Assembly: GCF_900187405.1 (NCBI RefSeq)
Contig: NZ_LT896716.1
Location: 2,422,001-2,486,000, forward strand
DNA: 64,000 bases
Source of the DNA: Geobacter sp. DSM 9736
GTDB lineage: Bacteria; Desulfobacterota; Desulfuromonadia; Geobacterales; Geobacteraceae
Direction of reading: 5' to 3'
Below the pieces are notes generated by a model that searched no databases, had not been told where the DNA came from, and was given only the letters and a program-made list of their open reading frames with translations. The position numbers and the translations under genes are program-made. Positions within the stretch are counted from its first letter, which is position 1. Every line of letters starts with the position of its first letter. Shown here one piece after another: positions 11,493-38,268 of the stretch.

Positions 11493-14400
11493 TGCAGTGA
11501 ACCAGCCTCTCGCCATCATCGGTATCGGCTGCATGTTCCCCGGCGGGGAGAACGGTGACGGTTACTGGTCTGCCATAAAAAACGGTATCGATGCCATTAC
11601 CGACATTCCCCCGACCCATTGGAGGACTGCAGACTATCATTCCAACGATCCGAAATCCCCAGACCGTACCTACGGCACCCGCGGTGGCTTCATCACGCCG
11701 GTCGACTTCAATCCCCTGGAGTACGGGCTTCCCCCAAATGTACTGGAGGCTACCGACAGCTCGCAGATACTCGGTATGGTGGCCGCGGGCGAAGCACTCA
11801 GGGATGCGGGATACGGACCGGAGCGGGAGTGGAACCGGGAGCGGGTGAGCGTCATCCTCGGCGTCACCGGCACTCTCGAACTCGTCATACCTCTCGGCGC
11901 CCGCCTTGGGCATCCCATATGGCGTAAGGCTCTTGCTGAAGCGGGAGTCGATCACACCACCGCTGAAGACGTGATCGAGCGTATCGGCGAATCGTACGTC
12001 GGGTGGCAGGAGAACTCCTTCCCGGGGCTCCTCGGGAACGTGGTTGCAGGAAGGATCAGCAAGCAGTTCGACCTTGGAGGTACAAACTGCGTTGTCGACG
12101 CAGCCTGCGCCAGCTCCCTGAGCGCCCTTCACCTGGCGGGACTGGAACTTGCCGCCGGGCGCGCAGACATGGTCGTCACCGGGGGGGTGGACACCTTCAA
12201 CGACATTTTCATGTACATGTGCTTCAGCAAAACGCCCGCCCTCTCCCCCACCGGAAATGCACGCCCCTTCGATGCAGCAGGGGACGGTACGATTCTCGGC
12301 GAAGGCCTTGGCATGGTCGTCCTCAAGCGGCTTTCCGACGCTGAAAGGGACGGCGACCGGATTTACGCTGTAATCCGCGGCATCGGCTCATCCAGCGACG
12401 GCAAGGGGGAAGCGATCTATGCCCCCAGCGCTGCAGGACAGCAGAAGGCACTCAGGGCCGCATACGAGCAGGCTGGGATAGCCCCCGACACCATCGGGCT
12501 CGTCGAAGCCCACGGCACTGGAACCAAGGTAGGGGATGCCGTCGAGGTGAAGGCGCTACGCGAAGTTTACGGTGAAGCGGAGAAGCCATGGTGCGCCCTC
12601 GGGTCGGTCAAGTCGCAGATCGGGCATACAAAGGCCGCCGCCGGCGCAGCAGGCCTGATCAAGGCGGCAATGGCGCTGCACCACAAGGTGCTTCCCCCTA
12701 CCATAAAGGTTTCCGAGCCCCTGGTGGAGGTAACATCGGGGGCGACTCCGTTCTACCTCAATACGGAAAAGAGGCCGTGGGCCGGAAACAGGACCCATCC
12801 ACGCCGTGCCGCGGTCAGTGCCTTCGGCTTCGGCGGCAGCAACTTCCACTGCGTCCTCGAAGAATATCTGCCGGAAAAGCAGGCACCGGACTGGGAAGGA
12901 AATGTCCAGCTATTGGCCTTTTCCGCCTCAGACAAGAAGGGGATTGTTGACCGCCTGGCCGCAATTCCGGAAAACTCGTCATGGGCTGAGATCCGCACAC
13001 TGGCCGCAGCCTCGCGCAGTTCCTTCAACGCTGGGGATTGCTGCCGCCTGCTGCTGGTTGCGGAAAAGGATCGAAACAATGTCCAGACCCTCATCCGGTC
13101 TGCGCTTACACTGCTCCAGACCGACCCTCGTCCGTCATGGAACACCCCTGACGGGACATGCTTCCAGAGCGGTTCGGCACCGGCAGGGAACCTCGCCCTG
13201 CTCTTCCCGGGGCAGGGTTCCCAGTACACCGGGATGCTCCGCGACCTAGCCTGCAGCTTCCCCGAGATGATCGAATCGCTTACTGCAGCAGACGAGGCGT
13301 TCCTGACCGGACGTCGTGAACGACTGACCGATCTGATCTATCCCCCCGCGGCCTACTCCTCCGAGGCAAAAGCCGCCGCCGAAGAGGCGCTGCGGGACAC
13401 CGGAGCAGCTCAGCCGGGAATAGGTGCCGTCAGTATGGGAGCATACCGGGTTCTGACGGATTTCGGTGTAAAAGCCGAAGCCGTTGCGGGCCACAGCTAT
13501 GGCGAACTCACGGCTCTCTGTGCGGCCGGTCGCCTGAACCAACGGGAGTTCCATCTCCTTTCCGGCCTCCGGGGCCGCCTCATGGGGGAAGGAACAGGGG
13601 AGAGGGGAGCAATGCTTGCCGTTGCCGCACCTCTTGCGGTTATCGAAGAAGTTATCGCGGCGGAAGGGCTTGATCTAGTTCTGGCGAACCGTAACGCCCC
13701 GGACCAGGGAGTACTCTCCGGCACGAGCAGTGAGATCGACAGAGCTTCCTCGGCGCTGGCGTCACGAGGTATTCCCTGCAAAGCCCTCCCCGTCTCCGCC
13801 GCGTTTCACAGCCGGCTCGTGGCCGCGGCACGGGAACCGTTCTTCGCCGCAATGGAAGAGGTACAGTTTCCTGAAGGCACCGTCCCTGTCTATGCCAACA
13901 GCACCGGCACCCCCTATCCCGCGGAGCCTGCCGCCGCACGGGAGCTCCTGGCAGGACAGCTTGCAAAGCCGGTGGAGTTCGTGGCGCAGATAGAAGCAAT
14001 GTACGCCGCCGGCATTCGCACCTTTCTGGAGGTCGGTCCCGGAGCACGGCTGTCGGGGCTCGTGAAAAAAATCCTCGGCGAGCGTGAACACCTGGCTCTG
14101 TCACTGGACTCGTCCGGCGGAAAGCGCTCCGGCGTTGCCGATCTCGCCCGGGTTCTCGCCCAGCTGGCAGCCGGCGGCCATGAGCTTCGACTTGCCGCAT
14201 GGGACGGCGACTTCGCCTCCAGGCCTGCCCCGACGGCAATAAAACCGGCCATGACGGTGCCCATCTGCGGGGCCAACTATCGCAAGCCACGGCAGCCGAA
14301 GCCTGCAGTCCGGGCAGCCACGGTGCCGCTACCCCCGAGGAGGGAAAAGCAGTCGGCTCCCCAGGCTCCAGCAATCATGCCCCCCTCCGCGCCATCCCCT

Positions 14401-17400
14401 TCTCCTGCTGCAGGAGAAGGATCAGCCGCGCTTCGTGCGAGTAACGAGGCGCTGGCAGCGCTGCAGAGGCTCCACGAGCAGACGGCACAGCTGCACCGCC
14501 AGTTCCTGGAAGGACAGGAGGCAGCCGGACGTACGATCCAGGCACTTCTCCAGCAGCAGCATCTGCCTGCGGGAGGCACCCCCCCTGCAGCCGTTTCAGC
14601 GGCACCCCCTCAGGTTACGGCTGCTCCGGCACCCACGCCGGCTCCATCCGTTTCCGCGCCAACTGTCACTGCACCGAAAGAAACAGGGGATTCAACGAGA
14701 ACCGAGCAGGTGCTTCTCGCAGTGATCAGCGAACGGACCGGCTACCCGGTGGAAATGCTCGAACTGGACATGACCCTCGATGCCGATCTGGGGATCGATT
14801 CGATCAAGCGCGTGGAGATCCTTTCCGCCCTCCAGGAACGCCTCCCCGATGCTCCTGCAGTAAAACCGGAACATTTGGGAACCCTCCACACCCTGCGGGA
14901 AATCGTGGCGCACCTGGGGAGTTCGGGGGCCGCTTCAGCGGCTACCCCCGCCCCTTCTGCCTCCTCGAAACGGGAAACCAATACGGAACGGGTCCTCCTC
15001 GCCGTAATCAGCGAGCGTACAGGCTATCCGGAGGAGATGCTCGAACTGGACATGACCCTGGATGCCGACCTGGGCATCGACTCGATCAAGCGGGTGGAAA
15101 TCCTCTCCGCCCTCCAGGAGCGCCTCCCGGATGCTCCGGCGGTGAAGCCGGAACACCTGGGGACCCTTCATACCCTGCGGGAGATCGTGGCGCACCTTGA
15201 GAGCGGCATGCCAGCCACACCGGCATCGACCCCTTCGCATAGGCCGGCCGTCTCCGCCCCCGTGCCAGCGTCAGCCGTGAAAAAGGCCGAAGAGGTCCTT
15301 CTTCAGGTGATCAGCGAACGGACCGGGTACCCGGTGGAGATGCTCGAACCGGACATGACCCTCGACGCCGATCTGGGAATCGATTCGATCAAACGTGTGG
15401 AGATCCTTTCGGCCCTCCAGGAGCGGCTCCCTGAAGCCCCGGCGGTCAAGCCGGAACACCTCGGGACGCTCCACACTCTGCGGGAAATCGTTGCATACCT
15501 GGAAAGCGGGACCAGCTCCTCAACTGATAAAACCGTCCATGCACCGCGTCCTGCCGTTGCGCCCAGACCTGCGGCAGAAGGAAATATCGAAGAGGCTCTC
15601 CTCCAGGTGATCAGCGACCGGACCGGCTACCCTGTGGAGATGCTCGAACTGGACATGGCCCTCGACGCGGATCTGGGCATCGACTCCATCAAAAGGGTGG
15701 AGATCCTCTCGGCTCTCCAGGAAAGACTTCCGGAAGCACCGGCAGTGAAGCCGGAACATCTCGGCACGCTTCATACCCTTCGTGAAATAGTCGCCCACCT
15801 GAAAGGAGTGCCCGCAGCCCCGGCGAATCCTGCAGCGGCACCCTCTCAAGCCACAGCGGAGCCGGACCCCGCTGCAGCCCTTGAGAGAAGCGTACTCTCC
15901 ATCGTCCCTCTCGACCTCTCCGTCAGCCGGACTAAAATTTCCGTGGTCGAGGGAGCGGAGGTCTGGCTGACAGATGATGGATCGATCCTCGGGTCGAGGA
16001 TTGCAACGCGGCTGGAAGCCCTGGGATACCGACCGAGGCTCGTAAGCCCGTCGTCACTCCCGGTAAGGGACGTGACGGCTCCCATCGGCGCTCTCCTAGT
16101 CCTCGCACCGGAGGCCGAAACCTCCGCCGACCGCTTCATCAGACAGGCTTTCGCCCTGCTGCAGGCCGCGGGGCCTGGGCTTAAGCATTCGGGAAGGGCA
16201 GGCGGCGCAAGCTTTGTAACCGTATCCCGTCTCGATGGCCGTTTCGGACTGGGGGCTGAAAGCGCACTGGGCGATCCCGCATCCGGCGGTCTGGCGGGTC
16301 TGGCAAAGACCGCTCACCGGGAGTGGCCCGAAGTTCACTGCAAAGCCCTCGACCTCGATCCCGGCTTTACCGACGCCGACCTTGCCGCCTCAGCGATAGT
16401 GGAGGAAATGTTCCTTTCCGGCCCCCGGGAGGTCGGGATTACCGCCGCCGGCAGGTTCGTTCCCGAACTGGTTGCAGCGCCCCTTCCTGAATCATCGTCC
16501 CTCTCCTTCAGCGGCACCGTCGTGATAAGCGGCGGCGGACGGGGAGTGACAGCCGAAATCGCCGTTGCCCTCGCCGCCAAAGGCTCGCCGGGACTGCTAC
16601 TGCTCGGACGCTCTCCCGAGCCAGCACCGGAGCCCGATTGGCTTGCGCCCCTCCATGACGAAGCATCTATAAAACAGGGGATTTTACAACATGCCGGAAT
16701 GCTCCCTCCTAAACAGCTGGAGGAGCGGTACCGCAATCTCATGGCGAACCGTGAACTCACCCGGACGCTGCAACTCATAGCCGATGCGGGTTCCCCCGTG
16801 CTCTACCGTTCCGTAGATATCCGTGACAAGGCAGCGGTTAGGGAGGCCGTCGCAGAAGCACGCCTGAAACTGGGGCCGATAACCGGGGTCATCCATGGCG
16901 CGGGAGTCCTCGCCGACCGCCGCATCGAGGATAAGACCGACGAGCAGTTCGCTCTCGTCTACGGGACGAAGGTGGATGGGGTACAGGCGCTTCTTTCGGC
17001 AGTCGCGGAGGATGACCTGAAGTTCATCGCCCTCTTCTCCTCCTCCACCGGAAGGTTCGGCAGGACGGGTCAATGCGACTACGCCGTCGCAAACGAAGTC
17101 CTCAACAAAGTTGCCCAGCAGCAGGCACGCCTTCGTCCCGGCTGCCGCGTCGTCTCCGTCAACTGGGGACCGTGGGACGGCGGGATGGTCACCCCTTCCC
17201 TCAAGAAAATGTTCGCCGCGGAAGGGGTCGGAGTCATAGGCCTTGCCTCCGGCGCCGAGCATCTTCTGGCGGAAATCTCCGAGCCGCCGGGAGCACCCGT
17301 GGAATCGGTAGTTATCGGCGCTGCCGAAGCGGCAGCCTCCGGGCCGCTCGATGCCGCTCCGACTCCCCTGACCCCTGCGGTGGAGTTGGAACTCTCCATA

Positions 17401-18243
17401 GAGCGCTACCCTTTCCTCACGTCCCACGTGATGAACGGAAAAGCGGTACTCCCCATGGCGATGATCGCCGAATGGCTTGCCCACGGCGCGCTCCACAACA
17501 ATCCGGGCTTCCGCATGCACGGGTTCAACGACCTGCGCATACTGAAAGGGGTCGTCTTCGAACGGGACAAGCCGGCCACCGTCCGTATTCTGACCGGAAA
17601 GGCCCGCAAACGGGATGCCTTTCATACCGTGCCCGTCGAGCTCGTCAGTGGCCTCACGGGTTCGGAGACGCTCCATGCACGGGGGGAGATACTGCTTGCC
17701 ACGAAGCTGCCCGAAGGAATACGAGCCATAACGGAGCTGCCGACCCGTCCCTACCCGCACCAGGACGGTGAGTACTACCGGGAGGGCATCCTCTTCCACG
17801 GCCCGGAACTGCAGGGAATTTCGCAGGTGGATGCCTGCTCCCCGGAAGGAATCGTGGCTACTGTAAAAGCGGCCCCGGCTCCCTCGACATGGATCCGCGA
17901 GCCGCTGCGCAACAGCTGGCTCACCGACCCGCTTGTCCTCGACTGCGCGTTCCAGCTGATGATCCTCTGGAGCTTCGAGCGCTCCGGCAAGGGGTCGCTT
18001 CCCTGCTTCGCCGGGCGTTATCGCCAATACCAGGAAGTCTTCCCCCGCGACGGTGTGCAGATCGTCGTACACGTTACGCGGGAGAACGAGCAGAGCGCCA
18101 CTGCGGATATGGAATTCTTCGACCGGCACAGCGGAAAGCTCGTGGCACGCCTCGAAGGCTATGAATGCGTCATCGACGCCTCCCTCAACAACGCTTTCCG
18201 CCGAAACCAGCTGCAGCAAAGCATGGAATTGGGGGCTGCCTGA
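11479..18243 (+). CDS. pfaA: PfaA-type PUFA synthase subunit: KS-AT-4xACP-KR-DH
   Basis: A 2254-residue megasynthase. Domain order: ketosynthase (about 10-460, nucleophile C210 in DAACASS, plus EAHGTGTKVGD and GHTKAAAG); acyltransferase (about 570-880, S673 in GHSYGE); an Ala/Pro/Gln-rich linker; four tandem acyl carrier domains each with LGIDSIKR (phosphopantetheine serines at 1108, 1202, 1303 and 1403); ketoreductase (about 1680-1960, SGGGRG nucleotide loop, YAVAN active site); and a C-terminal polyketide-type dehydratase hot-dog (about 1975-2240, SHVMNGKAVLP). It carries the growing chain in iterative PUFA synthesis. Start is GTG 11479, seven bases after AAGGAG. The ACPs need 4'-phosphopantetheine, presumably from the transferase at 38269. 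Confidence 0.95.
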   Translation: MKKDDAVNQPLAIIGIGCMFPGGENGDGYWSAIKNGIDAITDIPPTHWRTADYHSNDPKSPDRTYGTRGGFITPVDFNPLEYGLPPNVLEATDSSQILGMVAAGEALRDAGYGPEREWNRERVSVILGVTGTLELVIPLGARLGHPIWRKALAEAGVDHTTAEDVIERIGESYVGWQENSFPGLLGNVVAGRISKQFDLGGTNCVVDAACASSLSALHLAGLELAAGRADMVVTGGVDTFNDIFMYMCFSKTPALSPTGNARPFDAAGDGTILGEGLGMVVLKRLSDAERDGDRIYAVIRGIGSSSDGKGEAIYAPSAAGQQKALRAAYEQAGIAPDTIGLVEAHGTGTKVGDAVEVKALREVYGEAEKPWCALGSVKSQIGHTKAAAGAAGLIKAAMALHHKVLPPTIKVSEPLVEVTSGATPFYLNTEKRPWAGNRTHPRRAAVSAFGFGGSNFHCVLEEYLPEKQAPDWEGNVQLLAFSASDKKGIVDRLAAIPENSSWAEIRTLAAASRSSFNAGDCCRLLLVAEKDRNNVQTLIRSALTLLQTDPRPSWNTPDGTCFQSGSAPAGNLALLFPGQGSQYTGMLRDLACSFPEMIESLTAADEAFLTGRRERLTDLIYPPAAYSSEAKAAAEEALRDTGAAQPGIGAVSMGAYRVLTDFGVKAEAVAGHSYGELTALCAAGRLNQREFHLLSGLRGRLMGEGTGERGAMLAVAAPLAVIEEVIAAEGLDLVLANRNAPDQGVLSGTSSEIDRASSALASRGIPCKALPVSAAFHSRLVAAAREPFFAAMEEVQFPEGTVPVYANSTGTPYPAEPAAARELLAGQLAKPVEFVAQIEAMYAAGIRTFLEVGPGARLSGLVKKILGEREHLALSLDSSGGKRSGVADLARVLAQLAAGGHELRLAAWDGDFASRPAPTAIKPAMTVPICGANYRKPRQPKPAVRAATVPLPPRREKQSAPQAPAIMPPSAPSPSPAAGEGSAALRASNEALAALQRLHEQTAQLHRQFLEGQEAAGRTIQALLQQQHLPAGGTPPAAVSAAPPQVTAAPAPTPAPSVSAPTVTAPKETGDSTRTEQVLLAVISERTGYPVEMLELDMTLDADLGIDSIKRVEILSALQERLPDAPAVKPEHLGTLHTLREIVAHLGSSGAASAATPAPSASSKRETNTERVLLAVISERTGYPEEMLELDMTLDADLGIDSIKRVEILSALQERLPDAPAVKPEHLGTLHTLREIVAHLESGMPATPASTPSHRPAVSAPVPASAVKKAEEVLLQVISERTGYPVEMLEPDMTLDADLGIDSIKRVEILSALQERLPEAPAVKPEHLGTLHTLREIVAYLESGTSSSTDKTVHAPRPAVAPRPAAEGNIEEALLQVISDRTGYPVEMLELDMALDADLGIDSIKRVEILSALQERLPEAPAVKPEHLGTLHTLREIVAHLKGVPAAPANPAAAPSQATAEPDPAAALERSVLSIVPLDLSVSRTKISVVEGAEVWLTDDGSILGSRIATRLEALGYRPRLVSPSSLPVRDVTAPIGALLVLAPEAETSADRFIRQAFALLQAAGPGLKHSGRAGGASFVTVSRLDGRFGLGAESALGDPASGGLAGLAKTAHREWPEVHCKALDLDPGFTDADLAASAIVEEMFLSGPREVGITAAGRFVPELVAAPLPESSSLSFSGTVVISGGGRGVTAEIAVALAAKGSPGLLLLGRSPEPAPEPDWLAPLHDEASIKQGILQHAGMLPPKQLEERYRNLMANRELTRTLQLIADAGSPVLYRSVDIRDKAAVREAVAEARLKLGPITGVIHGAGVLADRRIEDKTDEQFALVYGTKVDGVQALLSAVAEDDLKFIALFSSSTGRFGRTGQCDYAVANEVLNKVAQQQARLRPGCRVVSVNWGPWDGGMVTPSLKKMFAAEGVGVIGLASGAEHLLAEISEPPGAPVESVVIGAAEAAASGPLDAAPTPLTPAVELELSIERYPFLTSHVMNGKAVLPMAMIAEWLAHGALHNNPGFRMHGFNDLRILKGVVFERDKPATVRILTGKARKRDAFHTVPVELVSGLTGSETLHARGEILLATKLPEGIRAITELPTRPYPHQDGEYYREGILFHGPELQGISQVDACSPEGIVATVKAAPAPSTWIREPLRNSWLTDPLVLDCAFQLMILWSFERSGKGSLPCFAGRYRQYQEVFPRDGVQIVVHVTRENEQSATADMEFFDRHSGKLVARLEGYECVIDASLNNAFRRNQLQQSMELGAA
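14700..15810 (+). repeat. four tandem ACP-coding repeats inside pfaA
   Basis: Four near-identical coding units with a period of roughly 280-303 bases, each ending in EHLGTLHTLREIVA-type sequence and separated by Ala/Pro/Ser-rich linkers. The serines are 94, 101 and 100 residues apart. DNA similarity between units is high enough that recombination could change the copy number and that short-read assembly could collapse it. Confidence 0.9.
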
Positions 18244-18245: not shown

Positions 18246-21200
18246 ATGATGCCTGCCGGTTCCACCGCAGGGAACGCAGGGGGAGAGGTGCGCGAAGCCA
18301 TAGCCGTCGTCGGCATCGGCGCCGTCTTCCCGGGGTCCCCCGATCTCGACCGTTTCTGGAATATCATCGCCCGCGCCACCAGCACCGCGCGCATCGTTCC
18401 CCAGGGACGCTGGGCAGTGCCTCCCGGCGAAGTATTCGATCCTTCCGTAGGCAGGCTCGACCGGGTCTACTCCCGCACCGGCTGCTTCATAGAAGGGCTT
18501 CCTCCCTTCGACGGGTCTGATCTTGGCCTGGAAGCCGGGCTGCTGGGTCGCCTCGACCCCCTCTTCCATCTCCTGCTCCACGCAGGCCACCGGGCCTGGG
18601 GCGATGCCGTCACAGCCCCTCTCGACCGTAGCAGGGTCGGCATCATCATCGGCAATCTCGCGCTGCCCAGCGAATACGCCTCCGCTCTCTCCAGGGAAAT
18701 TCTTGGGGGAGCCCTTGCGGAGAAGGTGATCGGGACCGCCTCTGCTGCCGGCTCAGTTCACCTCCTGAACAGGCATGTAACCGGATTTCCCGCCGCGCTG
18801 CTCGCTACCTCCCTCGGGCTCGGCGGGGGCAGCTACACTCTCGATGCCGCATGCGCATCCTCCCTCTATGCCATCAAACTCGCCATGGACGAGCTTCTGA
18901 GCGGCCGCGCAGACGCCATGCTCACCGGCGGGCTCTCGCGCCCCGACCCCCTTTACACCCAGATGGGTTTCTCGCAACTGCGGGCACTCTCCCCCACTGG
19001 AACCTGCTCACCCTTCGATGCTCGCGGCGACGGGCTCGTAGTGGGAGAAGGAGCGGGGATTTTTGTCCTAAAGCGTCTTTCCGACGCGCTGTCCGCAGGC
19101 GACCGCATATATGGAGTGATCCGCGGCATCGGGCTCTCCAACGACGTGGGGGGGAGCCTCCTTGCCCCTAATTCGGAAGGACAGCTCCGCGCCATGGAAG
19201 CCGCCTACCAGCAGGCAGGATGGAATCCCAACGACGTGGACCATGTTGAATGCCATGCCACCGGCACTCCGGTCGGAGACGCAGTGGAGTTCGCCAGCCT
19301 CCGTGCTCTCTGGGGGAAGGACGGTTGGAGAGGGAACGAGTGCGTTATAGGATCGGTGAAATCGAATATCGGTCATCTCCTCACCGCCGCCGGCGCAGCG
19401 GCTCTGATCAAGACCCTGCTGGCCATGCACCACGAAATCCTCCCCCCTACTGCCAACTTCACGACCCCAGCTCCGGGAATAGATCTCGACGATGGGCCGT
19501 TTCGTATCCTGACAGCCGCCGAGCGGTGGGAGCGTCGCCATCCGGACACCTCCAGGCGTGCGGCCGTAAGCGCCTTCGGATTCGGCGGCATCAACGCGCA
19601 CCTGCTTATCGAGGAGTGGCGTGATCCGTCGCATTTCGTCCCCGCTCCCGCCTCACTCAGGCCAGGCACACAGGGGGCAGCCGCTCTCCCCGTTGCAGTG
19701 GTCGGCATCGATGCACGTTTCGGTCCCTGGCAGTCGCTTCAAAAGTTCCAGCACCGCGTCCTCGGCGGCGGAGACGATTCTCCTGCCCCTCCACGTCGCT
19801 GGTGGGGTGTGGATGAGAGCGGGTGGTACCGCGCCCTGAATACCGGCCGGCGGATCACAGGTTACTGGGTGGACGAAGTCGCCATCCCTGCCGGGAAATT
19901 CCGCATCCCCCCAAAAGAGATGGAGGAGATGCTCCCGCAGCAGGCGCTCATGCTCCTGTCGGCCGAAGCGGCTCTTGCCGACGCAGGTTCCGCCGGAGAC
20001 AATGAGCGAACCGGCGCATTCATCGGGCTAAGCCTCGACCCGAATACCACCAACTTCACCCTGCGGTGGACCATGTCCGACAAGGCGCGGGAGTGGGCAC
20101 AGCACCTGGGACTCGATCTTTCAGAAGACGAATTGGCCGACTGGACGGAGAAGCTGCGCAACGCGGCAGGGCCGCCTCTCACCGCCAACCGGACAATGGG
20201 AGCGCTCGCAAGCATAGCTGCAAGCAGGATCGCCCGCGAATTCCGCCTCGGCGGTCCGGCATTCACCATCTCCGCAGGTGAGCATTCCGGCATACGTGCC
20301 CTCGAAGCCGCCGTACATGCGTTGCAGCAGGGTGAAGTGGACCGGGCGCTGGCCGGTGCCGTCGATTTCACCGGGGATGTCCGGGCGGCCCTGGCTGGTC
20401 AGGCTTCCATCACGGGACGCGAGACGGATGAAAGTATCGCAGGCGAAGGAGCAGTATCGCTTGTTCTCAAACGGCTGGAGGACGCGGAACGGGATGGCGA
20501 TCGCATCTATGCGGTCATAAAAGGTTTGGGGTCGGCCACTGCCTGCGATTCCGCTTTTGACCGCGCCTGCCACGATGCGGACATCACTCCCGGTTCGGTC
20601 GGGTATGTGGAAGTTGGGGGAACACTCCCCGATACCGTGGCAGCGTCTCTCTCGGCAGGCTCCGTCTGCACGTTCGGCGACCTGAAGGAACGTATCGGCG
20701 ACAGCGGTGCGGCTGCCGGCTTGGCATCGGTAGCACGTGCGTTGCTCTGCCTCTACCGGAAGATGCTTCCCGCTGCCGCATCTGCCGGACCGAAAGCCCC
20801 CCAGGCACCCGCACGCCTCTCCACTACGCCCAGCTACTGGCTGCATAACCGTGCCTGCGGCCCACGCCGCGCCGCAGTATGCTCTCCCGGAACGGAAGGG
20901 AGCTGGCGGCACATCATATTAGAAGAGCTGGAGTCCTCGTCCGAGAGCCTCCACGAGCGCACGCTTCCTTGGGGCTTCCCAGCGGAAGCGATTTTTGCCG
21001 TCACCGCAAATTCGCCGGGGGAACTGGCCGCAACGGCGAAGCGGCTGAGGAGCATGGCTGCCGTCGGCGAAGATCTAACGGGGCTTGGCCGGCAGTGGTT
21101 AAAAACACATCCGAATGAGGCTTCCCACCCGCTTGCCCTTGCGCTGGTGGCCCGAAGCCGCGGGGAGCTGATCGAACAGCTGGATTATGCACTGCATTCC

Positions 21201-24200
21201 CTGGAACATGAGCCGCAACGGCGCCTGGGGGATAACGGACGTTCACCAGCCGTCCGTGACCGGGTCTTTTATTCCCCTCTTCCCCTCGGACCTCGGGGAA
21301 CCGTCGCGTTCGTCTTCCCCGGTTCGGGAAACCACTATCCCGGCATGGGTAAGGAGTTATTCTGCCGGTGGCCCTCCGTCCTTCGAGCTCAGGAGGAGAG
21401 CAACCTGTTCCTCCGCGACCAGTTCCAGCCCGACCTCTTCTGGAATGGGCGGGATCCTGACGAGATACACCGGGACCATAATGCCTTGATTTTCGGCCAG
21501 GTCGCCCTCGGCACCGCCGTAAGCGACATCGTGAGGCAGTTCGGCGTGAACCCCGGAGCCGTCGTCAGCTACAGCCTCGGCGAATCGGCCGGGCTCTTTT
21601 CCCTCGGAGCCTGGAAGGACAGAGACCTGATGCTGCAGCGGATGCTCGATTCGACCCTCTTCACCCATGACCTGGCGGGTGAGTGCCGCGCGGCGCGCGA
21701 GGTATGGGGGCTTTCTCCGGATGCTCCCCTCGAATGGGTGGTGGGGGTGGTTGACCGCCCGGCGGTAGAGGTGCGGCAGGCGCTGGCTTCCATCGGACAA
21801 GCCTACCTGCTCATCGTCAACACCCCCTCGGAGTGTGTGGTGGGAGGAAACCGGCCCGCGGTGGAAACGCTCGTCCAGCGTCTCGAATGCCGCTTCTATC
21901 CCATCTCCGGAGTTACTACAGTCCATTGCGAGGTGGCCCGGCCGGTGGCACAGGCTTACCATGACCTGCACCTGTTTGAGACATCTCCACCCCAGGGCGT
22001 TACCTTCTACAGTGGTGCATGGGGACGCGCCTACGACGTTACCCGCGAGAGCGCTGCCGAATCGATTCTTGCGCAGGCGCTACACGGGATAGATTTTCCC
22101 AAGACAGTGGAAGCGGCATACGGCGACGGCGCTCGTGTCTTCCTGGAAATGGGCCCCGGAGCGTCGTGCAGCCGGATGATCAGCGCCATCCTCGCGGACC
22201 GTCCCCACGTTGCCCGATCCGCCTGTTTTGCAGGCCAGGACCCGGTTTCCACCGTGCTGCGCATGCTTGCCCAGCTTGTGGCGGAGCGTGTCCCGGTGAA
22301 CCTGGAAAAGTTGTACGGTGCTGGGGATACAGCCGAAACAGCCCCGGAACAGCCGCAGATAACGCTGCGGCCCGGTGGAGAGCCTTTCCGCGCGGCGGTC
22401 CCCTCCCCGCAACGGATAACCTTACCCGCTCCGGCCGAGCAGGTACCTGCCGCTTCCCCTTGTCCCGCCCCGGCTGCAGAGAGGGCGTCGCTTGCCGTAC
22501 GTATCGTCGAACTGCAGGACGCTACAAGGCAGGCTCATGAGGCATACCTCCGTTTTTCCGCCCGGATCACCGAAGCCATCGCCCAGGCCCTCAGCCACCA
22601 GATGGGGATGGTGGAGACTCTTCCTGCAGAGTACGTGGCGGACATTCCGGCAGCTCCCGATTACCACGCGCCGCCCCCCTCTTCCGCACCGCCCCCGGTA
22701 GCCTTCGACCGGAACATGTGCATGGAGTTTGCGGTGGGATCGGTTGCGGCCATGCTGGGCCCCGAGTTCGCCGAGGCGGATACGTTCCCCACCCGCGTGC
22801 GCCTCCCTGATGAACCGCTTATGCTCGTGGACCGCATCATGCTGATCGATGCCGTGCCCCGATCCATGGGGAGCGGAAGGGTCGTTACCGAGCACGATAT
22901 CCTTCCCGGCGCATGGTATCTCGACGGCGGCCGCATACCCACCTGCATTGCAGTGGAAGCTGGGCAGGCGGACCTTTTCCTCTCCGGATACCTCGGAATC
23001 GACTTCATCACACGTGGAAAGGCGGTGTACCGGCTCCTGGACGCCGTCGTCACCTTCCACCGCGAGCTTCCCCGCCCCGGCGAGACAATCAGCTACGACA
23101 TCCGCATCGAGAGTTTCTTCCGCCAGGACAGCACGTACCTCTTCCGCTTCAACTTCGAGGGAACCGTGAACGGGGAACCGCTTCTCACCATGCGGGACGG
23201 CTGCGCCGGCTTCTTCACAGAAGCGGAACTGGCCGCCGGCAAGGGTATCGTCCACACCAAGCTCGACCTGCTCCCCCGCCCCGGGATACGGCCTGATGAC
23301 TGGCGGCAGCCCGTGCCGATGGGAGTGGAATCGTACGACGCATCGCAGCTGGAAGCCCTCCGGCGGGGAGACCTTGCTGGGTGCTTCGGAGCTCTCTTCG
23401 CCGGTCTCCCGCTGCACGCGCCACTGACCATCCCCGGTGGACGCATGAAGCTCGTCGACCGGGTAGTGCACCTGGATCCGACCGGGGGCAGGTTCGGCCT
23501 CGGTCTTGTCCGCGCTGAAGCAGACATCGACCCGGCAGCATGGTTCCTGACCTGCCATTTCGTGGACGACCAGGTAATGCCGGGTACGCTCATGTACGAG
23601 TGCTGCCTCCACACGCTGCGGATTTACCTGCTGCGGATGGGGTGGATCGGCGAGGCCGCCGAAACGGCATGCGAACCGGTCCCGGGAGTGGCAAGTCAGC
23701 TGAAGTGCCGGGGGCAGGTGACCGCCGCGACACGCACCGTCACCTATGAAATTTCGCTCCGGGAGATCGGGTACCGCCCGGAACCCTACGTGATCGTGGA
23801 CGCACTCATGTACGCCGACGGAAAAGCGATCGTAGAAATCACGAACATGTCCGCCAGGCTTTCGGGCCTTTCGAGGGAGAAGGTTGAAGCTCTGTGGCAG
23901 CGCAATCCGCAGACGGCTATCCCCTCCAGACCCCTTTTCGATTACGACCGCATTCTCGCCTTTGCCACGGGAAATCCCTCGGAAGCCTTCGGGGAACCGT
24001 ACCGGGTTTTCGACGAGAAACGGGTGATTGCGCGCCTTCCCGGCCCCCCCTTCCAGTTCCTCGACCGTATTGTCGAGCTTGACGCGGAGCCGTGGGTCAT
24101 GAAAGCAGGGGGCGTGGCGGTGGCGGAGTACGACGTGCCGGCGGACGCCTGGTACTTCCGGGAGAACCGCCAGCCGCTAATGCCGTTCAGCGTGCTCCTG

Positions 24201-25034
24201 GAGATCGCCCTTCAGCCGTGCGGCTGGCTCGCAGCCTATATCGGCTCGGCACTGACGAGCGACACCGACCTCCACTTCCGCAACCTCGGTGGAACCGCCG
24301 TTCAGCTCCTGCCGGTGACCGCAGAGACAGGCACGCTCAGGACGACTGCGAAGATAACCAAAGTTGCCGCAAGCGGCGGAATGATCATCCAGAACTATGA
24401 ATTCAGCGTCGAATCCTCCATCGGCACCGTCTATCGGGGGGATACGGTTTTCGGCTTCTTTTCCGCCGATGCTCTGGCCCGGCAGGTGGGGATCACCAAT
24501 GCGAACCCCTGGCGCCCCTCCGCCGAAGAAGAGGCCGGATGGAGAACTTTGCACTTCCCGACGGCGGCACCCTATCCGGACACTATGCTCCGCATGATCG
24601 GAAAGATCGACTGCCTCCTCCCCCAGGGGGGGCCCCACCGCCTCGGTTACGTCCGCGGCAGCAAGCATGTGGACCCGGAAGAGTGGTTCTTCAAGGCCCA
24701 CTTCTACCAGGACCCGGTCTGCCCGGGCTCCCTCGGGCTCGAATCATTCCTGCAGCTACTCAAGCTCCTCGCCCTTGAGAAGTGGAACGGAGGTCCTGCG
24801 AGCGTCCTGCAAACGGTGGAGCTCGGCAGGAAGCATGCCTGGACCTACAGGGGGCAGATCATTCCGGCCAACAGGGAAGTTGTCGTTGAAGCCGTGGTAA
24901 CGTCGGTTGACGACGAAACCCGTACATTGACCGCGGACGGCTTCCTTTCGGTGGACGGAAAGGTCATTTACGAGATGAAGGACTTCACTCTCAAACTGGA
25001 AAATGCTTTAAAAGGTGACATAACTCCGCAATAG
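18246..25034 (+). CDS. pfaC: PfaC-type PUFA synthase subunit with built-in PfaB-like AT: KS-CLF-AT-DH-DH
   Basis: About 2262 residues. Order: ketosynthase (nucleophile C203 in DAACASS, HATGTPVGD, GSVKSNIGH); chain-length-factor KS-like domain (about 505-900) in which the cysteine position is E679 (ISAGEHSG); acyltransferase (about 1018-1330, S1110 in SYSLGES), the part normally supplied by separate PfaB; then four FabA-like hot-dogs forming two double hot-dog dehydratases. Only the second hot-dog of each pair keeps the active histidine (H1771 in CHFVDDQVMPG; H2152 in AHFYQDPVCPG). These perform the dehydration/isomerisation that leaves cis double bonds. Start ATG 18246 is two bases after the pfaA stop; upstream in-frame codons lie inside pfaA. 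No acyltransferase of the AGPAT type is seen at the C-terminus. Confidence 0.93.
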   Translation: MMPAGSTAGNAGGEVREAIAVVGIGAVFPGSPDLDRFWNIIARATSTARIVPQGRWAVPPGEVFDPSVGRLDRVYSRTGCFIEGLPPFDGSDLGLEAGLLGRLDPLFHLLLHAGHRAWGDAVTAPLDRSRVGIIIGNLALPSEYASALSREILGGALAEKVIGTASAAGSVHLLNRHVTGFPAALLATSLGLGGGSYTLDAACASSLYAIKLAMDELLSGRADAMLTGGLSRPDPLYTQMGFSQLRALSPTGTCSPFDARGDGLVVGEGAGIFVLKRLSDALSAGDRIYGVIRGIGLSNDVGGSLLAPNSEGQLRAMEAAYQQAGWNPNDVDHVECHATGTPVGDAVEFASLRALWGKDGWRGNECVIGSVKSNIGHLLTAAGAAALIKTLLAMHHEILPPTANFTTPAPGIDLDDGPFRILTAAERWERRHPDTSRRAAVSAFGFGGINAHLLIEEWRDPSHFVPAPASLRPGTQGAAALPVAVVGIDARFGPWQSLQKFQHRVLGGGDDSPAPPRRWWGVDESGWYRALNTGRRITGYWVDEVAIPAGKFRIPPKEMEEMLPQQALMLLSAEAALADAGSAGDNERTGAFIGLSLDPNTTNFTLRWTMSDKAREWAQHLGLDLSEDELADWTEKLRNAAGPPLTANRTMGALASIAASRIAREFRLGGPAFTISAGEHSGIRALEAAVHALQQGEVDRALAGAVDFTGDVRAALAGQASITGRETDESIAGEGAVSLVLKRLEDAERDGDRIYAVIKGLGSATACDSAFDRACHDADITPGSVGYVEVGGTLPDTVAASLSAGSVCTFGDLKERIGDSGAAAGLASVARALLCLYRKMLPAAASAGPKAPQAPARLSTTPSYWLHNRACGPRRAAVCSPGTEGSWRHIILEELESSSESLHERTLPWGFPAEAIFAVTANSPGELAATAKRLRSMAAVGEDLTGLGRQWLKTHPNEASHPLALALVARSRGELIEQLDYALHSLEHEPQRRLGDNGRSPAVRDRVFYSPLPLGPRGTVAFVFPGSGNHYPGMGKELFCRWPSVLRAQEESNLFLRDQFQPDLFWNGRDPDEIHRDHNALIFGQVALGTAVSDIVRQFGVNPGAVVSYSLGESAGLFSLGAWKDRDLMLQRMLDSTLFTHDLAGECRAAREVWGLSPDAPLEWVVGVVDRPAVEVRQALASIGQAYLLIVNTPSECVVGGNRPAVETLVQRLECRFYPISGVTTVHCEVARPVAQAYHDLHLFETSPPQGVTFYSGAWGRAYDVTRESAAESILAQALHGIDFPKTVEAAYGDGARVFLEMGPGASCSRMISAILADRPHVARSACFAGQDPVSTVLRMLAQLVAERVPVNLEKLYGAGDTAETAPEQPQITLRPGGEPFRAAVPSPQRITLPAPAEQVPAASPCPAPAAERASLAVRIVELQDATRQAHEAYLRFSARITEAIAQALSHQMGMVETLPAEYVADIPAAPDYHAPPPSSAPPPVAFDRNMCMEFAVGSVAAMLGPEFAEADTFPTRVRLPDEPLMLVDRIMLIDAVPRSMGSGRVVTEHDILPGAWYLDGGRIPTCIAVEAGQADLFLSGYLGIDFITRGKAVYRLLDAVVTFHRELPRPGETISYDIRIESFFRQDSTYLFRFNFEGTVNGEPLLTMRDGCAGFFTEAELAAGKGIVHTKLDLLPRPGIRPDDWRQPVPMGVESYDASQLEALRRGDLAGCFGALFAGLPLHAPLTIPGGRMKLVDRVVHLDPTGGRFGLGLVRAEADIDPAAWFLTCHFVDDQVMPGTLMYECCLHTLRIYLLRMGWIGEAAETACEPVPGVASQLKCRGQVTAATRTVTYEISLREIGYRPEPYVIVDALMYADGKAIVEITNMSARLSGLSREKVEALWQRNPQTAIPSRPLFDYDRILAFATGNPSEAFGEPYRVFDEKRVIARLPGPPFQFLDRIVELDAEPWVMKAGGVAVAEYDVPADAWYFRENRQPLMPFSVLLEIALQPCGWLAAYIGSALTSDTDLHFRNLGGTAVQLLPVTAETGTLRTTAKITKVAASGGMIIQNYEFSVESSIGTVYRGDTVFGFFSADALARQVGITNANPWRPSAEEEAGWRTLHFPTAAPYPDTMLRMIGKIDCLLPQGGPHRLGYVRGSKHVDPEEWFFKAHFYQDPVCPGSLGLESFLQLLKLLALEKWNGGPASVLQTVELGRKHAWTYRGQIIPANREVVVEAVVTSVDDETRTLTADGFLSVDGKVIYEMKDFTLKLENALKGDITPQ

Positions 25035-25036
25035 TA

Positions 25037-25159
25037 CAGGTTGCTCAAAAACGGCCAGATCGTCGCACCCGCAGCAAGCCATGAGGAGGCGTAGTAGCGC
25101 TACGCCGCACGAGGCGGCTTGCGAGGAGGGAGGCGAGATGGCTGTTTTTCAGCAATCTG
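25037..25159. repeat. REP/MITE-like palindromic element between pfaC and oleA
   Basis: A 123-base imperfect palindrome beginning three bases after the pfaC stop. The left end CAGGTTGCTCAAAAACGG mirrors the right end CTGTTTTTCAGCAATCTG, read in reverse complement as CAGATTGCTGAAAAACAG. The centre is GC-rich (GCAAGCC...GGCGGCTTGC with AGCGCTACGCC). The layout resembles dispersed intergenic palindromes I recall from Geobacter genomes. It carries no gene. No second copy was noticed in this window. Confidence 0.65.
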
Positions 25160-25175
25160 CTGAAGGTTGACAGGC

Positions 25176-26216
25176 ATGAAATACTCTAAGGTTCACATCG
25201 ACAGCATCGGCTACCAGCTCGCCCCCGTGGTGATAACCTCCACGGATCTGGAAAACCGCCTTGATCCGCTCTACCGGACACTACGTTTCGTCCCGGGCCA
25301 GCTTGAAGCGCTTACCGGCATCCGGGAACGGCGCTGGTGGGAACCTAATTTCCCCCTCTCGGAAGGGGCCGTAATGGCAGGACGCAGCGCCCTCGCCGAA
25401 AGCGGCGTGCCGGTCGGGGAGATCGGAGCCCTGGTGTACGCCGGAGTCTGCCGCGAGCAGTTCGAGCCGGCAACAGCCTGCCGTGTCGCCGCCGGCCTAG
25501 GTATCTCCGGGGCCTGCGCCATCTATGACCTGAGCAACGCCTGCCTCGGTGTCCTGAACGGGATGCTGGAGATCGCCAACAGGATCGAACTGGGGCAGAT
25601 CCGTGCGGGGCTCGTCGTCTCCTGCGAGAGCGCCCGCGAGATCAATGACATCATCATCGCCCGTCTTCTGGCCGAGCCCGACATGCAACTCTTTGCCACA
25701 TCACTCGCCACCCTGACCGGCGGCTCCGGCGCGGTGGCCGTGCTGCTGACGGACGGCTCCTTCGGGAATCGCGGACGCAGGCTCGCAGGAGGCGTAACGA
25801 TAGCGGCCCCGGAACACCATGCGCTCTGTCGGTGGGGGGTCGAATCCGAAGGAGGATTCTCGTTCCGCCAGTACATGAGTACCGATGCCGTGGAGGTCAT
25901 GAAACATGGGGTCGCCCTGGGGGCACGGACCTGGCGGGCCTTTCTGCAAGAACTGGGATGGCGCACCGAGGAAGTTGCCCGCACGGTCTGCCATCAGGTC
26001 GGCTCCGCGCACCAGGCCGAGATCCTGAAGACGGTAGGCCTTTCTGCCGAGAACGATTTCGTCACCTATCCCTTCCTCGGCAACATGGGAACTGTGTCGT
26101 TGCCGCTGAGCGCGGCGTTGGCCGCCGAACGGGAATTCATCGAGCCGGGTCACCGGGTGGCCCTTCTCGGCATCGGCAGCGGACTCAACTGCCTCATGCT
26201 CGGAGTCGAATGGTGA
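25176..26216 (+). CDS. oleA: OleA, head-to-head acyl-CoA condensing enzyme
   Basis: A thiolase-fold, KAS III-like protein of 346 residues, the usual OleA length. The nucleophile cysteine is C123 in SNACLGVLNGM; the histidine is in VCHQVGSAHQ and the asparagine in FLGNMGTVSLPL. OleA condenses two long-chain acyl thioesters without decarboxylation, giving a 2-alkyl-3-ketoacyl product. The NACLG context with the downstream oleB, oleC and oleD separates it from ordinary FabH. Start ATG 25176 has AAGG nine bases upstream; a TTG at 25167 is possible. It is the first gene after the palindromic element, with no obvious own promoter, so read-through from pfaC is likely. Confidence 0.92.
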   Translation: MKYSKVHIDSIGYQLAPVVITSTDLENRLDPLYRTLRFVPGQLEALTGIRERRWWEPNFPLSEGAVMAGRSALAESGVPVGEIGALVYAGVCREQFEPATACRVAAGLGISGACAIYDLSNACLGVLNGMLEIANRIELGQIRAGLVVSCESAREINDIIIARLLAEPDMQLFATSLATLTGGSGAVAVLLTDGSFGNRGRRLAGGVTIAAPEHHALCRWGVESEGGFSFRQYMSTDAVEVMKHGVALGARTWRAFLQELGWRTEEVARTVCHQVGSAHQAEILKTVGLSAENDFVTYPFLGNMGTVSLPLSAALAAEREFIEPGHRVALLGIGSGLNCLMLGVEW

Positions 26217-27091
26217 CGGATCTCTACCCCTTTTCAGGAAACTATCTCGACCTCGACGGGATTCGCTACCACTATCTGGACGAGGGGAGCGGGGAGCCTG
26301 TGGTGATGCTCCACGGCAATCCCACCTGGTCCTTCTATTACCGCAACCTCGTCCTCGCCCTCCGTGGCGGTTACCGCACCATCGTCCCCGACCACATAGG
26401 TTGCGGGCTTTCGGACAAGCCGGGAGACGATCTTTACGATTACACGCTCGAACGGCGGGTGGACGACCTGGAACGACTTCTTGACCGGCTCGGCATCACG
26501 AGCGGCATAACCCTCGTCCTCCACGACTGGGGAGGAATGATCGGGATGACGTACGCCACCCGTCATCCGGAACGGATCAAGCGGCTCGTAATACTGAACA
26601 CGGCGGCATTCCACCTCCCCGCAGAGAAGCCGTTCCCATTGGCACTCCGGATCTGCAGGGACACGAGGCTCGGCACCTTTCTGGTCCGCGGCTTTAACGC
26701 CTTCAGCCTCGCAGCCTCCTTCGTCGGGTGCAAGAAGAATCCGATGCCCCGGGAGTTGAGAAGAGAGTACCGGCGCCCTTACGACTCCTGGAAGAACCGG
26801 ATCGCCACGCTGCGTTTCGTGCAGGACATACCCCTCACCCCGAAGGACCGGGGTCACAGCCTTATCACCGAAGTCGCCGAAGGACTGGAGCAGTTCACCC
26901 GGCTTCCCATGATCATCTGCTGGGGGGAGCTGGACTTCGTCTTCGACCGTCATTTCCTCGCCGAGTGGGTGCGCCGTTTCCCGAAAGCGGAGTTGCACCG
27001 CTTCCCCGAGCATGGGCACTACATCCTGGAAGATGCCGGTGATGAGGTGATCCCGCTGATTTCCGCCTTTCTTAGAAGTACATCCGGATAA
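26210..27091 (+). CDS. oleB: OleB, alpha/beta-hydrolase (beta-lactone decarboxylase)
   Basis: A 293-residue alpha/beta-hydrolase of haloalkane-dehalogenase type: HGNPTWS oxyanion region, nucleophile D106 in LHDWGG and histidine H270 in EHGHYILED. OleB proteins decarboxylate the cis-beta-lactone made by OleC to give the cis-olefin. Without the oleA neighbour it could be read as a haloalkane dehalogenase, but the locus settles the role. The ATG at 26210 overlaps the end of oleA by seven bases, showing coupling; GTG 26213 is the next option. Confidence 0.9.
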   Translation: MVTDLYPFSGNYLDLDGIRYHYLDEGSGEPVVMLHGNPTWSFYYRNLVLALRGGYRTIVPDHIGCGLSDKPGDDLYDYTLERRVDDLERLLDRLGITSGITLVLHDWGGMIGMTYATRHPERIKRLVILNTAAFHLPAEKPFPLALRICRDTRLGTFLVRGFNAFSLAASFVGCKKNPMPRELRREYRRPYDSWKNRIATLRFVQDIPLTPKDRGHSLITEVAEGLEQFTRLPMIICWGELDFVFDRHFLAEWVRRFPKAELHRFPEHGHYILEDAGDEVIPLISAFLRSTSG

Positions 27092-27260
27092 CCGAGATTG
27101 CCCCCGACACACCCCGCCTTGCCCGGACATGGTTAATAATATTCCCCTAAAAAAGTCAAAGTCGCTCGTTTTTTTGAATGCAGCTGATATACTTTTTTAA
27201 AATCTGTTAATTATGATGCTTCCTTGCATACATTTATGATGTTTGGGATGGGGGGCTGCG

Positions 27261-29744
27261 ATGAAGGTATTTGGCTGGAGGCTTTTATTCCTGACAGTCT
27301 TTCTTCTTTCAACGTACAATCTGCATGCAGTCGCAGCCGATTACTCCATAAAGATCGACAGTGGTGCTCACAACAGGTATGGTCTCCACTACCCCGCAAC
27401 CTACAAATTTAAGATACCCAGCGCGGTCCGTGGGCTGATAGCGGAATACAGGTATTCCCTCGATGACCAATGGAACAGGCTGCCTCAAAGAAGTAAAGGC
27501 GACATGTTCAACGGCATCGACGCCGTTCGTTTCGATTACGAGAACGGCTTTGCATACGCAAGTGTAAGGTTCAGCAGTAGGTCCGACGTAATCTACCTGC
27601 GCATCCTCGATGGAAACGGCCTTCCCGTAAATTACACCTTCGACTCGATCCCTCTTTTCTATGACGACCGGAGAGCAGCCGTAACCATTACGCTCGACGA
27701 TTACGCAGACTGGACTCACGGGGACTTCGCGACAGCTCTCCAGTACCTCGAAGGTTACGGATTGCATTTCACTCTAGGGGTGATGTCGGGGCAGGTTTAC
27801 TCATGGAGGCAGTTGCAAGATCTTGTAGACAGGCACGGGGCGTACCTCGAAGTAGCTTCCCACAGCAGCCACCATCCCCGGAATGCAGGAGGGTACGCCG
27901 CCAACGGGTATGAAGCGGAAGTAATCGGAAGCAGAGATGAAATCCGAAACGGATTATCATTTAACGGACACCCATACATTCCGCTGTACATCGAACCATA
28001 CGGCTATTCCGATTCAACTCTCGAATCGTACGTCTCCTCGGGGGGTTATCTCGTTTCAAGGGGGGTCTTCAGCGGAACGGCTTTTTCTGCTTGGAATCCC
28101 GAGGAAGGACGCTACGACAGAGCTCCCCTTACCTATCATGATTATGGCAGGGCTAACGACGCACAGTTCGTGCTGGAAGCCAACGCTCATTTTGATCAAG
28201 CCGTGTCCCAAGGGGGCATTTACCACCTGATGGACCACCCCTGGCAGGGGATGTGGCAGGCAGGAACGCCGTTTCTGCAGCATCTCGACTACATCCACGG
28301 CAGAAGTGACATCTGGTACGTTCCTTTCGGTCGCCTGTATCAGTACCACTTTCTTCAGGAGAGGCGCGGGGGTCTCACCATATCACCTGCCGACACGAAT
28401 GAAGACCCCTCCGGGCACAGCCATTTCACAATAAATACCGACAGTATCGGTAACGGAAGCATCACCTGCACACCAGGTACAACGGTCGATCCCGGTACGG
28501 CAGCGTCATGTTGGGTAGCGGCGGATTATGGGCACCACATCACCGACGTTACCGTCGACGGCACTTCCCAGCCTGTCGCCAGCCGGAGCACCTTCAGCTA
28601 CTCCTTCGACCCCGTCATGCGCAATCATGGCATTTCCGCCAGCTTCTCCCCCAACAGCTACAGCATAACCTTCGTCTCTGGAGGCAACGGATCGGTTACC
28701 GGAGCCGCATCACAGCTGATCGGGCACGGCGCTTCAACTACAGCCGTCACGGCCGTGCCTGCAGAAGGATTCCGGTTCGTCAACTGGACTGCTCCCGATG
28801 GCTTCATAAGCACGGACAATCCGCTCGTCCTTACCAATGTCGCCGCTCGGCGGACCGTTACAGCCAATTTCGATGCGAGCTCTTATTTCGTGGAATTCTT
28901 GAGCAGCGGTAACGGTACTGTTTCGGGCAACACCGGACAGACAGTGACCCGTGGGGGAGCGACGACGGCAGTTACCGCCATTCCCGCACAGGGATATCAC
29001 TTCGAGGCCTGGACCTCGGCAGACGGGTTGGTGGAGAAGTCGAATCCACTGGTACTCTCCTTCGTCACAGGTAATCGGACCCTGACAGCCCTCTTCGCTC
29101 CCGACACCCATACCGTAACGACTGAAAGCCGGGGCGGCGGCAGAATAGAGCCGACCGGACCCGTGACGATTCGACATGATTCCTCGACCAGCTTTACCGT
29201 AACCCCAGCCGACAGTTTCCGGATCGCCTCCGTAACAGGCTGCGGCGGTTCCTTGTCGGGCAACACCTATACAACCGGGCCCATAACATCCGACTGCTCG
29301 GTCTCAGCCACGTTCGCTGAAATTACCCACACGCTCACAGGAACGGTCGAAGCGGGAAAAGGCACCATCGCTTGCGCCACTCCGGTAACCTCCGGCCAAA
29401 GCTCATCGTGCACCGTCACACCTGCACCCGGATTCATGCTGGTGCGACTCACCGACAACGGTATGGACAGAACGAGCGAGGTTCAGGACAACATCTATCT
29501 GCTCCCGTCCGTTACCTCCGCTCATGCCATAGCAGCAGAATTCGCAGGAGACGCTTACACCTTGGCGGACGCGGTAACGGCACAGCAGCAGATTCTTGGA
29601 AGGCGCAAGGTTGCCGAAAAGGAGCTGTTGCGGCTCGATGTCGCGCCACTCGGCCCGGACGGGGCACCACGGCCTGACGGCACAGTCGATGTGGCTGACG
29701 TCGTGATCATGTTGAGGAGGCTGGTGGGAATCATTACCTGGTAG
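27261..29744 (+). CDS. secreted polysaccharide-deacetylase-like protein with InlB-type repeats and dockerin-like C-terminus
   Basis: About 827 residues. A signal peptide (MKVFGWRLLFLTVFLLS, then HAVAA) precedes a NodB-like deacetylase region (about 130-380) with TLDDYADW and VASHSSHHPRN, which supply the expected Asp-Asp and His-xxx-His metal motifs. From about residue 385 there are several beta-repeats of the divergent InlB/bacterial-repeat type (FVNWTAPDGFISTDNPLVL, AWTSADGLVEKSNPLVLSF). The last 60 residues (LADAVTAQQQILG, then DGTVDVADVVIMLRRLVG) look like a dockerin-type calcium-binding domain. Start ATG 27261 follows a GGGGGG ribosome binding site. It probably acts on an extracellular or envelope glycan. 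It interrupts the ole genes and its codon pattern seems less GC-biased than theirs, hinting at separate ancestry. Confidence 0.8.
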   Translation: MKVFGWRLLFLTVFLLSTYNLHAVAADYSIKIDSGAHNRYGLHYPATYKFKIPSAVRGLIAEYRYSLDDQWNRLPQRSKGDMFNGIDAVRFDYENGFAYASVRFSSRSDVIYLRILDGNGLPVNYTFDSIPLFYDDRRAAVTITLDDYADWTHGDFATALQYLEGYGLHFTLGVMSGQVYSWRQLQDLVDRHGAYLEVASHSSHHPRNAGGYAANGYEAEVIGSRDEIRNGLSFNGHPYIPLYIEPYGYSDSTLESYVSSGGYLVSRGVFSGTAFSAWNPEEGRYDRAPLTYHDYGRANDAQFVLEANAHFDQAVSQGGIYHLMDHPWQGMWQAGTPFLQHLDYIHGRSDIWYVPFGRLYQYHFLQERRGGLTISPADTNEDPSGHSHFTINTDSIGNGSITCTPGTTVDPGTAASCWVAADYGHHITDVTVDGTSQPVASRSTFSYSFDPVMRNHGISASFSPNSYSITFVSGGNGSVTGAASQLIGHGASTTAVTAVPAEGFRFVNWTAPDGFISTDNPLVLTNVAARRTVTANFDASSYFVEFLSSGNGTVSGNTGQTVTRGGATTAVTAIPAQGYHFEAWTSADGLVEKSNPLVLSFVTGNRTLTALFAPDTHTVTTESRGGGRIEPTGPVTIRHDSSTSFTVTPADSFRIASVTGCGGSLSGNTYTTGPITSDCSVSATFAEITHTLTGTVEAGKGTIACATPVTSGQSSSCTVTPAPGFMLVRLTDNGMDRTSEVQDNIYLLPSVTSAHAIAAEFAGDAYTLADAVTAQQQILGRRKVAEKELLRLDVAPLGPDGAPRPDGTVDVADVVIMLRRLVGIITW

Positions 29745-38261: not shown

Positions 38262-38268
38262 GCGTCCG

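Follow-up and report, generated by a model that had tools for sequence, protein, structure and literature searches.

Pfa synthases carrying a pfaBC fusion were described as Type I from Geobacter, Pelobacter, Desulfuromonas and Gemmata and, in the sections of that study dealing with them, were suggested to supply olefin synthesis (Shulse and Allen, 2011; PMC3098273); the same study notes hentriacontanonaene as a product of G. bemidjiensis. According to the relevant part of a later survey, pfaD, A, B, C, oleA, B, C, D and pfaE stand in tandem in G. bemidjiensis (Yoshida and others, 2016; PMC4882568), and the same part states that the AGPAT domain is confined to the Type L of myxobacteria. The pertinent passages of a paper on Minicystis (PMC8436480) and of one on Yarrowia (PMC6731297) describe AGPAT-bearing Pfa3 proteins. 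In the sections concerned of a 2019 paper, the authors conclude that OleA connects Pfa and hydrocarbon biosynthesis through direct action on the Pfa synthase, its ACP domains being the most likely site and 16:4n-3 the predicted chain (PMC6463001).

The locus analysed herein lies in a 64,000-nucleotide stretch of the Geobacter sp. DSM 9736 chromosome (contig NZ_LT896716.1, positions 2,422,001 to 2,486,000), hereafter referred to as the window. The pfaBC fusion, the KS grouping and a PPTase with P0 and P1b motifs, by which Type I is recognized, were all found there. In light of the prior descriptions, as far as the relevant excerpts of PMC3098273, PMC4882568 and PMC6463001 go, the synthase is thus a further example of the described Type I, and a layout known since 2011 and 2016 is confirmed in a further genome. 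The supply of OleA by Type I synthases has likewise already been proposed in print (in the portions concerned of PMC3098273 and PMC4882568).

Compared with Type I as characterized in the pertinent sections of PMC3098273, the window agrees in the pfaBC fusion, the ole genes as proposed consumer, the PUFA-type PPTase motifs and the organism group, whereas it has an unrelated gene between oleB and oleC, and its PPTase lies 5.6 kb from oleD (ca. 13 kb from pfaC). It also shares with the G. bemidjiensis tandem (PMC4882568, part on this species) the D, A and B/C functions, followed by oleA, B, C, D and then the PPTase; in the window, however, the oleB-oleC and oleD-PPTase junctions are interrupted. 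The Type L synthases of the myxobacteria Aetherobacter and Minicystis, in the passages of PMC4882568 and PMC8436480 describing them, similarly place pfaD first, have the AT within PfaC and lack pfaB, but they carry a C-terminal AGPAT that has no counterpart in the window, whose KS did not group with an AGPAT-bearing relative (Azospirillum). Type C of Desulfatibacillum alkenivorans has a PfaBC of the same KS-CLF-AT-DH2 organization, with pfaD on the 3' side instead of 5', upstream of pfaA, as in the window (PMC3098273, section on Type C). In contrast to the marine Types A and B, neither a separate pfaB nor the order A-B-C-D was found in the window.

Table 1. Features of the pfa-ole locus, with positions counted from the first letter of the window
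Feature	Position	Strand	Length and basis
pfaD, enoyl reductase, first gene of cluster	9942..11492	+	TIGR02814 pfaD_fam 624 bits (cut-off 449)
pfaA, KS-MAT-ACP(4)-KR-PS-DH	11479..18243	+	2254 aa; TIGR02813 1771 bits (cut-off 1010)
pfaC with fused pfaB-type AT (pfaBC fusion)	18246..25034	+	2262 aa; domain models
pfaC KS domain	18294..19631	+	Cys203/His337/His377 kept in 66/66 rows; edges approximate
pfaC CLF (KS-like)	19689..21035	+	active position without Cys in 66/66 rows; edges approximate
pfaC AT domain, PfaB-like	21294..22310	+	TIGR02816, residues 1017-1355; Ser1110, His1227
pfaC DH1, double hotdog	22773..23885	+	PF07977; acid 1571, His1771; edges approximate
pfaC DH2, double hotdog	23958..24995	+	PF07977; acid 1986, His2152; edges approximate
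Intercistronic long-hairpin repeat	25036..25160	+	ca. 120 bp; between pfaC and oleA
oleA	25176..26216	+	NF006720 485 bits (cut-off 285); ORF from TTG 25167, ATG 25176 likely start
oleB, alpha/beta hydrolase	26210..27091	+	PF00561; NF002938 haloalkane dehalogenase 159 bits, under cut-off 241; start assigned from the ORF
Extra gene between oleB and oleC	27243..29744	+	833 aa; InlB-type repeats, weak polysaccharide deacetylase match
oleC, beta-lactone synthetase type	29896..31560	+	NF006754 779 bits, over cut-off
oleD, 2-alkyl-3-oxoalkanoate reductase type	31536..32555	+	NF042422 458 bits, under cut-off 580
PPTase, pfaE-like	38191..39009	+	PF01648; motifs LRQVLS, FGKP, FNLSH

Domains and gene order of the Pfa synthase

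As listed in Table 1, pfaD, pfaA and pfaC are all encoded on the plus strand, with neighbours overlapping or sitting 2 bp apart, and their coordinates confirm the order pfaD-pfaA-pfaC read in the initial annotation. The pfaC gene opens with ATG at 18246, the reading frame in the program-made ORF list opening earlier, at 18165. Searches with Pfam and NCBIfam models revealed the domain order KS-CLF-AT-DH-DH in this single ORF, in which four FabA-type hotdog stretches make up the two DH units; the models and the active-site residues together bear out the earlier assignment of all five domains to one 2262-residue protein. In PfaA, Pfam detected four PP-binding stretches, with the motif LGIDSIKR at residues 1104, 1198, 1299 and 1399.

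The AT of PfaC scored 89 bits against TIGR02816 (pfaB_fam), below its 144-bit cut-off, and 28 bits against PF00698 when the whole protein was scanned (cut-off 32.7), rising to 33.4 bits for the region scanned alone. Residue conservation was assessed in an alignment of 71 rows, comprising the window and 65 genome loci (66 rows) along with five plasmid references. The AT dyad Ser1110/His1227 was intact, the Ser being kept in 65 of the 66 rows and the His in all of them, and the histidines and acids of the DH domains were kept in 63 to 66 of 66. The nucleophile elbow of the AT (window 21567-21575, residues 1108-1110) reads SYS, within S-Y-S-L-G, the first place being G in 63 of the 66 rows.

The marine arrangement with a separate pfaB, which the initial annotation had set against this locus, shifted in emphasis, since the layout of Types A and B is one among several. 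A plasmid search returned 38 records, nine of them spanning 80% or more of the query; five of the nine were taken, and PfaC was scanned in three (Azospirillum, Persicobacter and one Streptomyces). Weak AT matches below cut-off were found inside PfaC of these three, with the AT Ser kept in each.

The genome, of 3.96 Mb and 99.99% complete, yielded no stand-alone pfaB, in agreement with the earlier reading of the window: genome-wide, TIGR02816 matched only this pfaC and pfaA, both under cut-off. The other Acyl_transf_1 matches in the genome were a 337-aa ORF, at a guess FabD, and a 282-aa stand-alone MdcH/FabD-like AT (G000:C1:3399180) that gave no pfaB_fam match at E 0.01. Genes for a thioesterase of YbgC-like type and for a B12 radical SAM protein accompany this latter AT outside the window, perhaps forming another lipid cluster with it.

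C-terminal end of PfaC and phylogenetic position of its KS

In a profile scan of the last 300 residues of PfaC, the check that the initial annotation had called for, FabA and two weak hits under cut-off in unrelated families were obtained and neither an AGPAT nor a thioesterase match, so that its reading of a synthase without AGPAT held; the tail beyond the last hotdog comprises only 18-20 residues. As a positive control, the plasmid-borne PfaC of Azospirillum lipoferum, with a tail 673 residues longer, gave a PF01553 match at 2651-2793. This AGPAT-type domain occurs in Azospirillum although the section concerned of PMC4882568 limits AGPAT to myxobacteria. Elsewhere in the genome of the window three PF01553 (PlsC-type) acyltransferases were found, all outside the window and the nearest about 0.5 Mb off, and none of the five genome matches to 4HBT thioesterase fell inside the window.

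A scan of genome contigs yielded 126 relatives, the best 80 of which were used, and a scan of viral contigs for relatives found none. At 72 loci with a closed pfaC 3' end, the last 260 residues were scanned with Pfam (E 0.01), resulting in FabA in 72/72 and PF01553 in 0/72. PfaC ended at most two residues past the end of the window's protein, or earlier, in 71 of the 72; the remaining one (L064) is 42 residues longer and was the lowest-identity row (35%). The missing AGPAT is therefore the usual state among the relatives examined, and a loss of AGPAT inside this lineage need not be assumed.

These observations bear on the proposal that the synthase belongs to a Type L (myxobacterial) lineage that lost its C-terminal AGPAT. 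Such an origin would accord with the order pfaD-pfaA-pfaC and the AT inside PfaC, as in Aetherobacter and Minicystis (PMC4882568 and PMC8436480, descriptive passages), and the AGPAT-bearing Azospirillum locus is also pfaD-first; the absence of AGPAT from all 72 closed relatives nevertheless speaks against it. A KS tree was built from 34 hand-chosen rows (28 of 73 PfaC rows and all 6 PfaA) and rooted on the PfaA KS domains. The window KS fell within a 23-row clade (100/98) together with Geotalea, Pelotalea, Trichlorobacter, Desulfuromusa and Planctomycetota, and the window synthase is thus of the Geobacter type. Moritella (6riw), Persicobacter and Streptomyces were grouped at 100/100, apart from this clade. 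In a 79-row tree the clade was recovered at 99, with Gemmataceae included, and the window was sister to 12 rows, mostly of Geobacteraceae (87).

The KS of the AGPAT-bearing Azospirillum, which stood in for the myxobacteria, took an unsure position alongside the marine sequences and Streptomyces (93/75), apart from the Geobacter-type clade; a tree uniting it with Type I was not rejected (p-AU 0.187), a point in favour of the Type L origin. Five of the 80 loci are classed as Myxococcota, under records entitled only Deltaproteobacteria bacterium, and were not counted as myxobacteria; two of them (L071 and L073) fell among Geobacteraceae in the 79-row tree. The 2011 definition of Type I rests on the KS of PfaA, of which the tree had three such representatives (the window, L003 and L020; 99/99), and the Type I strains named in 2011 were not picked by name. 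Furthermore, in the passages considered, the Minicystis paper names Sorangium, Streptomyces, Azospirillum and Tahibacter as neighbours of the myxobacterial Pfa proteins, and Geobacter goes unmentioned throughout its main text (PMC8436480). On the basis of the 34-row and 79-row trees, with Azospirillum as proxy, the myxobacterial-like lineage put forward in the initial annotation is not supported, and we regard a Type L synthase stripped of its AGPAT as highly improbable.

Linkage of pfaC to oleA and the fate of the acyl chain

Homologues of oleA, B, C and D were all present together downstream of pfaC (Table 1), with OleB, OleC and OleD scoring below the strict cut-offs set for the olefin pathway or for the nearest equivalog; OleC reached 704 bits (cut-off 900) and 676 bits (cut-off 850) against the olefin beta-lactone synthetase models. 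The protein interrupting oleB and oleC had no tblastn match at 1e-5 among 88 loci, and its end, read by eye, may be dockerin-like. A motif scan assigned LRQVLS and FNLSH of the PPTase to the PUFA-type P0 and P1b motifs as defined in the relevant section of PMC3098273. In 15 loci matches were obtained to both oleD and the PPTase, and there the two lie 0-105 bp apart; in the window, the interval 32662-38261 holds genes for DUF3108, DksA-like, hemerythrin and aminotransferase proteins together with two unassigned ORFs.

Among the relatives, 62 closed loci had at least 3.5 kb of downstream sequence, and an oleA of the same orientation followed pfaC by no more than 600 bp in 49 and by 1.5-3.5 kb in five; in the remaining eight it was absent from the available flank. 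Whole-genome searches for four of these eight (L056, L057, L061 and L062) located OleA elsewhere in all four, and three further genomes searched (L071, L080 and L033) had OleA as well. The genome of L004, where pfaC nearly fills a 6.8-kb contig, gave no OleA better than E 2e-6. Where 9.5 kb or more of upstream sequence was available (43 loci), pfaD preceded pfaA in 29 and pfaA without pfaD was found upstream in three; neither was found in the other 11, and the full cassette is thus not universal. Individual loci departed from these patterns: in L043, one of these three, pfaD lies downstream of oleD and not before pfaA; oleB, C and D follow pfaC in L075 with no oleA matched in the locus; and four Desulfuromusa loci (L007, L011, L047 and L067) have between pfaC and oleA an ORF of 461-467 residues that, named by eye, reads like dihydrolipoamide dehydrogenase.

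In 48 genomes of the family, the PfaC DH region was detected in 32 and OleA (E <=1e-60) in the identical 32, and in all 32 the two genes were adjacent on the same strand and no more than 404 bp apart. The chance value of 4e-13 for this shared presence ignores kinship and is not to be taken literally, some of the 16 genomes lacking both being incomplete; the genomes are related, and the 32 are therefore not 32 independent events. That pfaC and oleA occur in exactly the same genomes strengthens the 2011 idea that this type of synthase feeds hydrocarbon synthesis in anaerobes.

From this adjacency and shared presence, the acyl chain is likely to be handed over to OleA. The hand-over was already contained in the initial annotation, where it was argued from the missing AGPAT; the linkage in 32/32 genomes supports the proposal itself and not that argument. 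The missing AGPAT was rejected as a sign of hand-over, since the eight relatives without oleA in their flank match no AGPAT either, and its absence throughout the 72 closed relatives, these eight included, accordingly says nothing special about OleA. The use of this trait in the earlier reading is corrected thereby.

Taken together, the locus very probably encodes a fused PfaBC of the Type I (Geobacter-type) secondary lipid synthases, whose chain would be taken by OleA toward a long polyene. By analogy with the published systems, PfaD, PfaA and PfaC would assemble a polyunsaturated acyl chain on the ACPs of PfaA, with the internal AT of PfaC performing the role of PfaB and its two FabA-type DHs presumably forming the cis double bonds; the chain would probably be 16:4, in line with proposals made for Shewanella and Photobacterium. 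The synthase itself would not pass this chain to a glycerolipid. Instead, OleA, encoded next door, may accept it from the ACP and condense it head to head with another such chain, after which OleB, C and D could convert the condensate to a long polyene such as hentriacontanonaene (31:9). Counted against this reading were the weak scores of OleB, C, D and the AT relative to their cut-offs, the interruption between oleB and oleC, the distant PPTase, the L004 genome with no OleA better than E 2e-6, the 11 of 43 loci with neither pfaA nor pfaD matched upstream, and the three PlsC-type acyltransferases encoded elsewhere, through which acyl transfer to phospholipid could conceivably proceed. More tentatively, and with rather less confidence than doubt, we consider that the Type I Pfa might constitute one half of a dedicated hydrocarbon machine, in which pfaC and oleA are gained or lost as a unit and OleA is the obligatory remover of the chain from a synthase having no off-loading domain of its own.

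Alternatively, a distinct acyltransferase of PlsC type could transfer the PUFA to the phospholipids of the membrane, the ole genes being mere neighbours or using other chains. The three PF01553 proteins encoded elsewhere in the genome speak for this destination, as does Shewanella livingstonensis, in which EPA reaches normal levels only with a separate PlsC1 (PMC4882568, passage on this enzyme). Against such a destination stand the presence of pfaC and oleA in the same 32 of 48 family genomes, always side by side, and the polyene hydrocarbon made by G. bemidjiensis (PMC3098273), and we judge it unlikely, preferring delivery of the chain to OleA.

A hairpin repeat between pfaC and oleA

The gap between pfaC and oleA contains a conserved sequence that folds as a single long hairpin (-68.8 kcal/mol, z -6.06). 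At least 42 matches to it, itself included, were found in the genome (with 40 of 116 candidates scored), and matches, some of them short, occurred in 16 of the 48 family genomes, the window's own included. The Rfam search of 24900-25300 listed one match, which lay outside the hairpin and under the gathering score. In 20 of the 42 copies, mostly the best-matching ones, two-sided changes were observed in 6 of 45 pairs, one of which was U-A in 11 copies and C-G in nine. The element looks like a REP or MITE-like repeat, and short copies of its core (positions 50-79) were seen in several genera, in the manner of a REP element.
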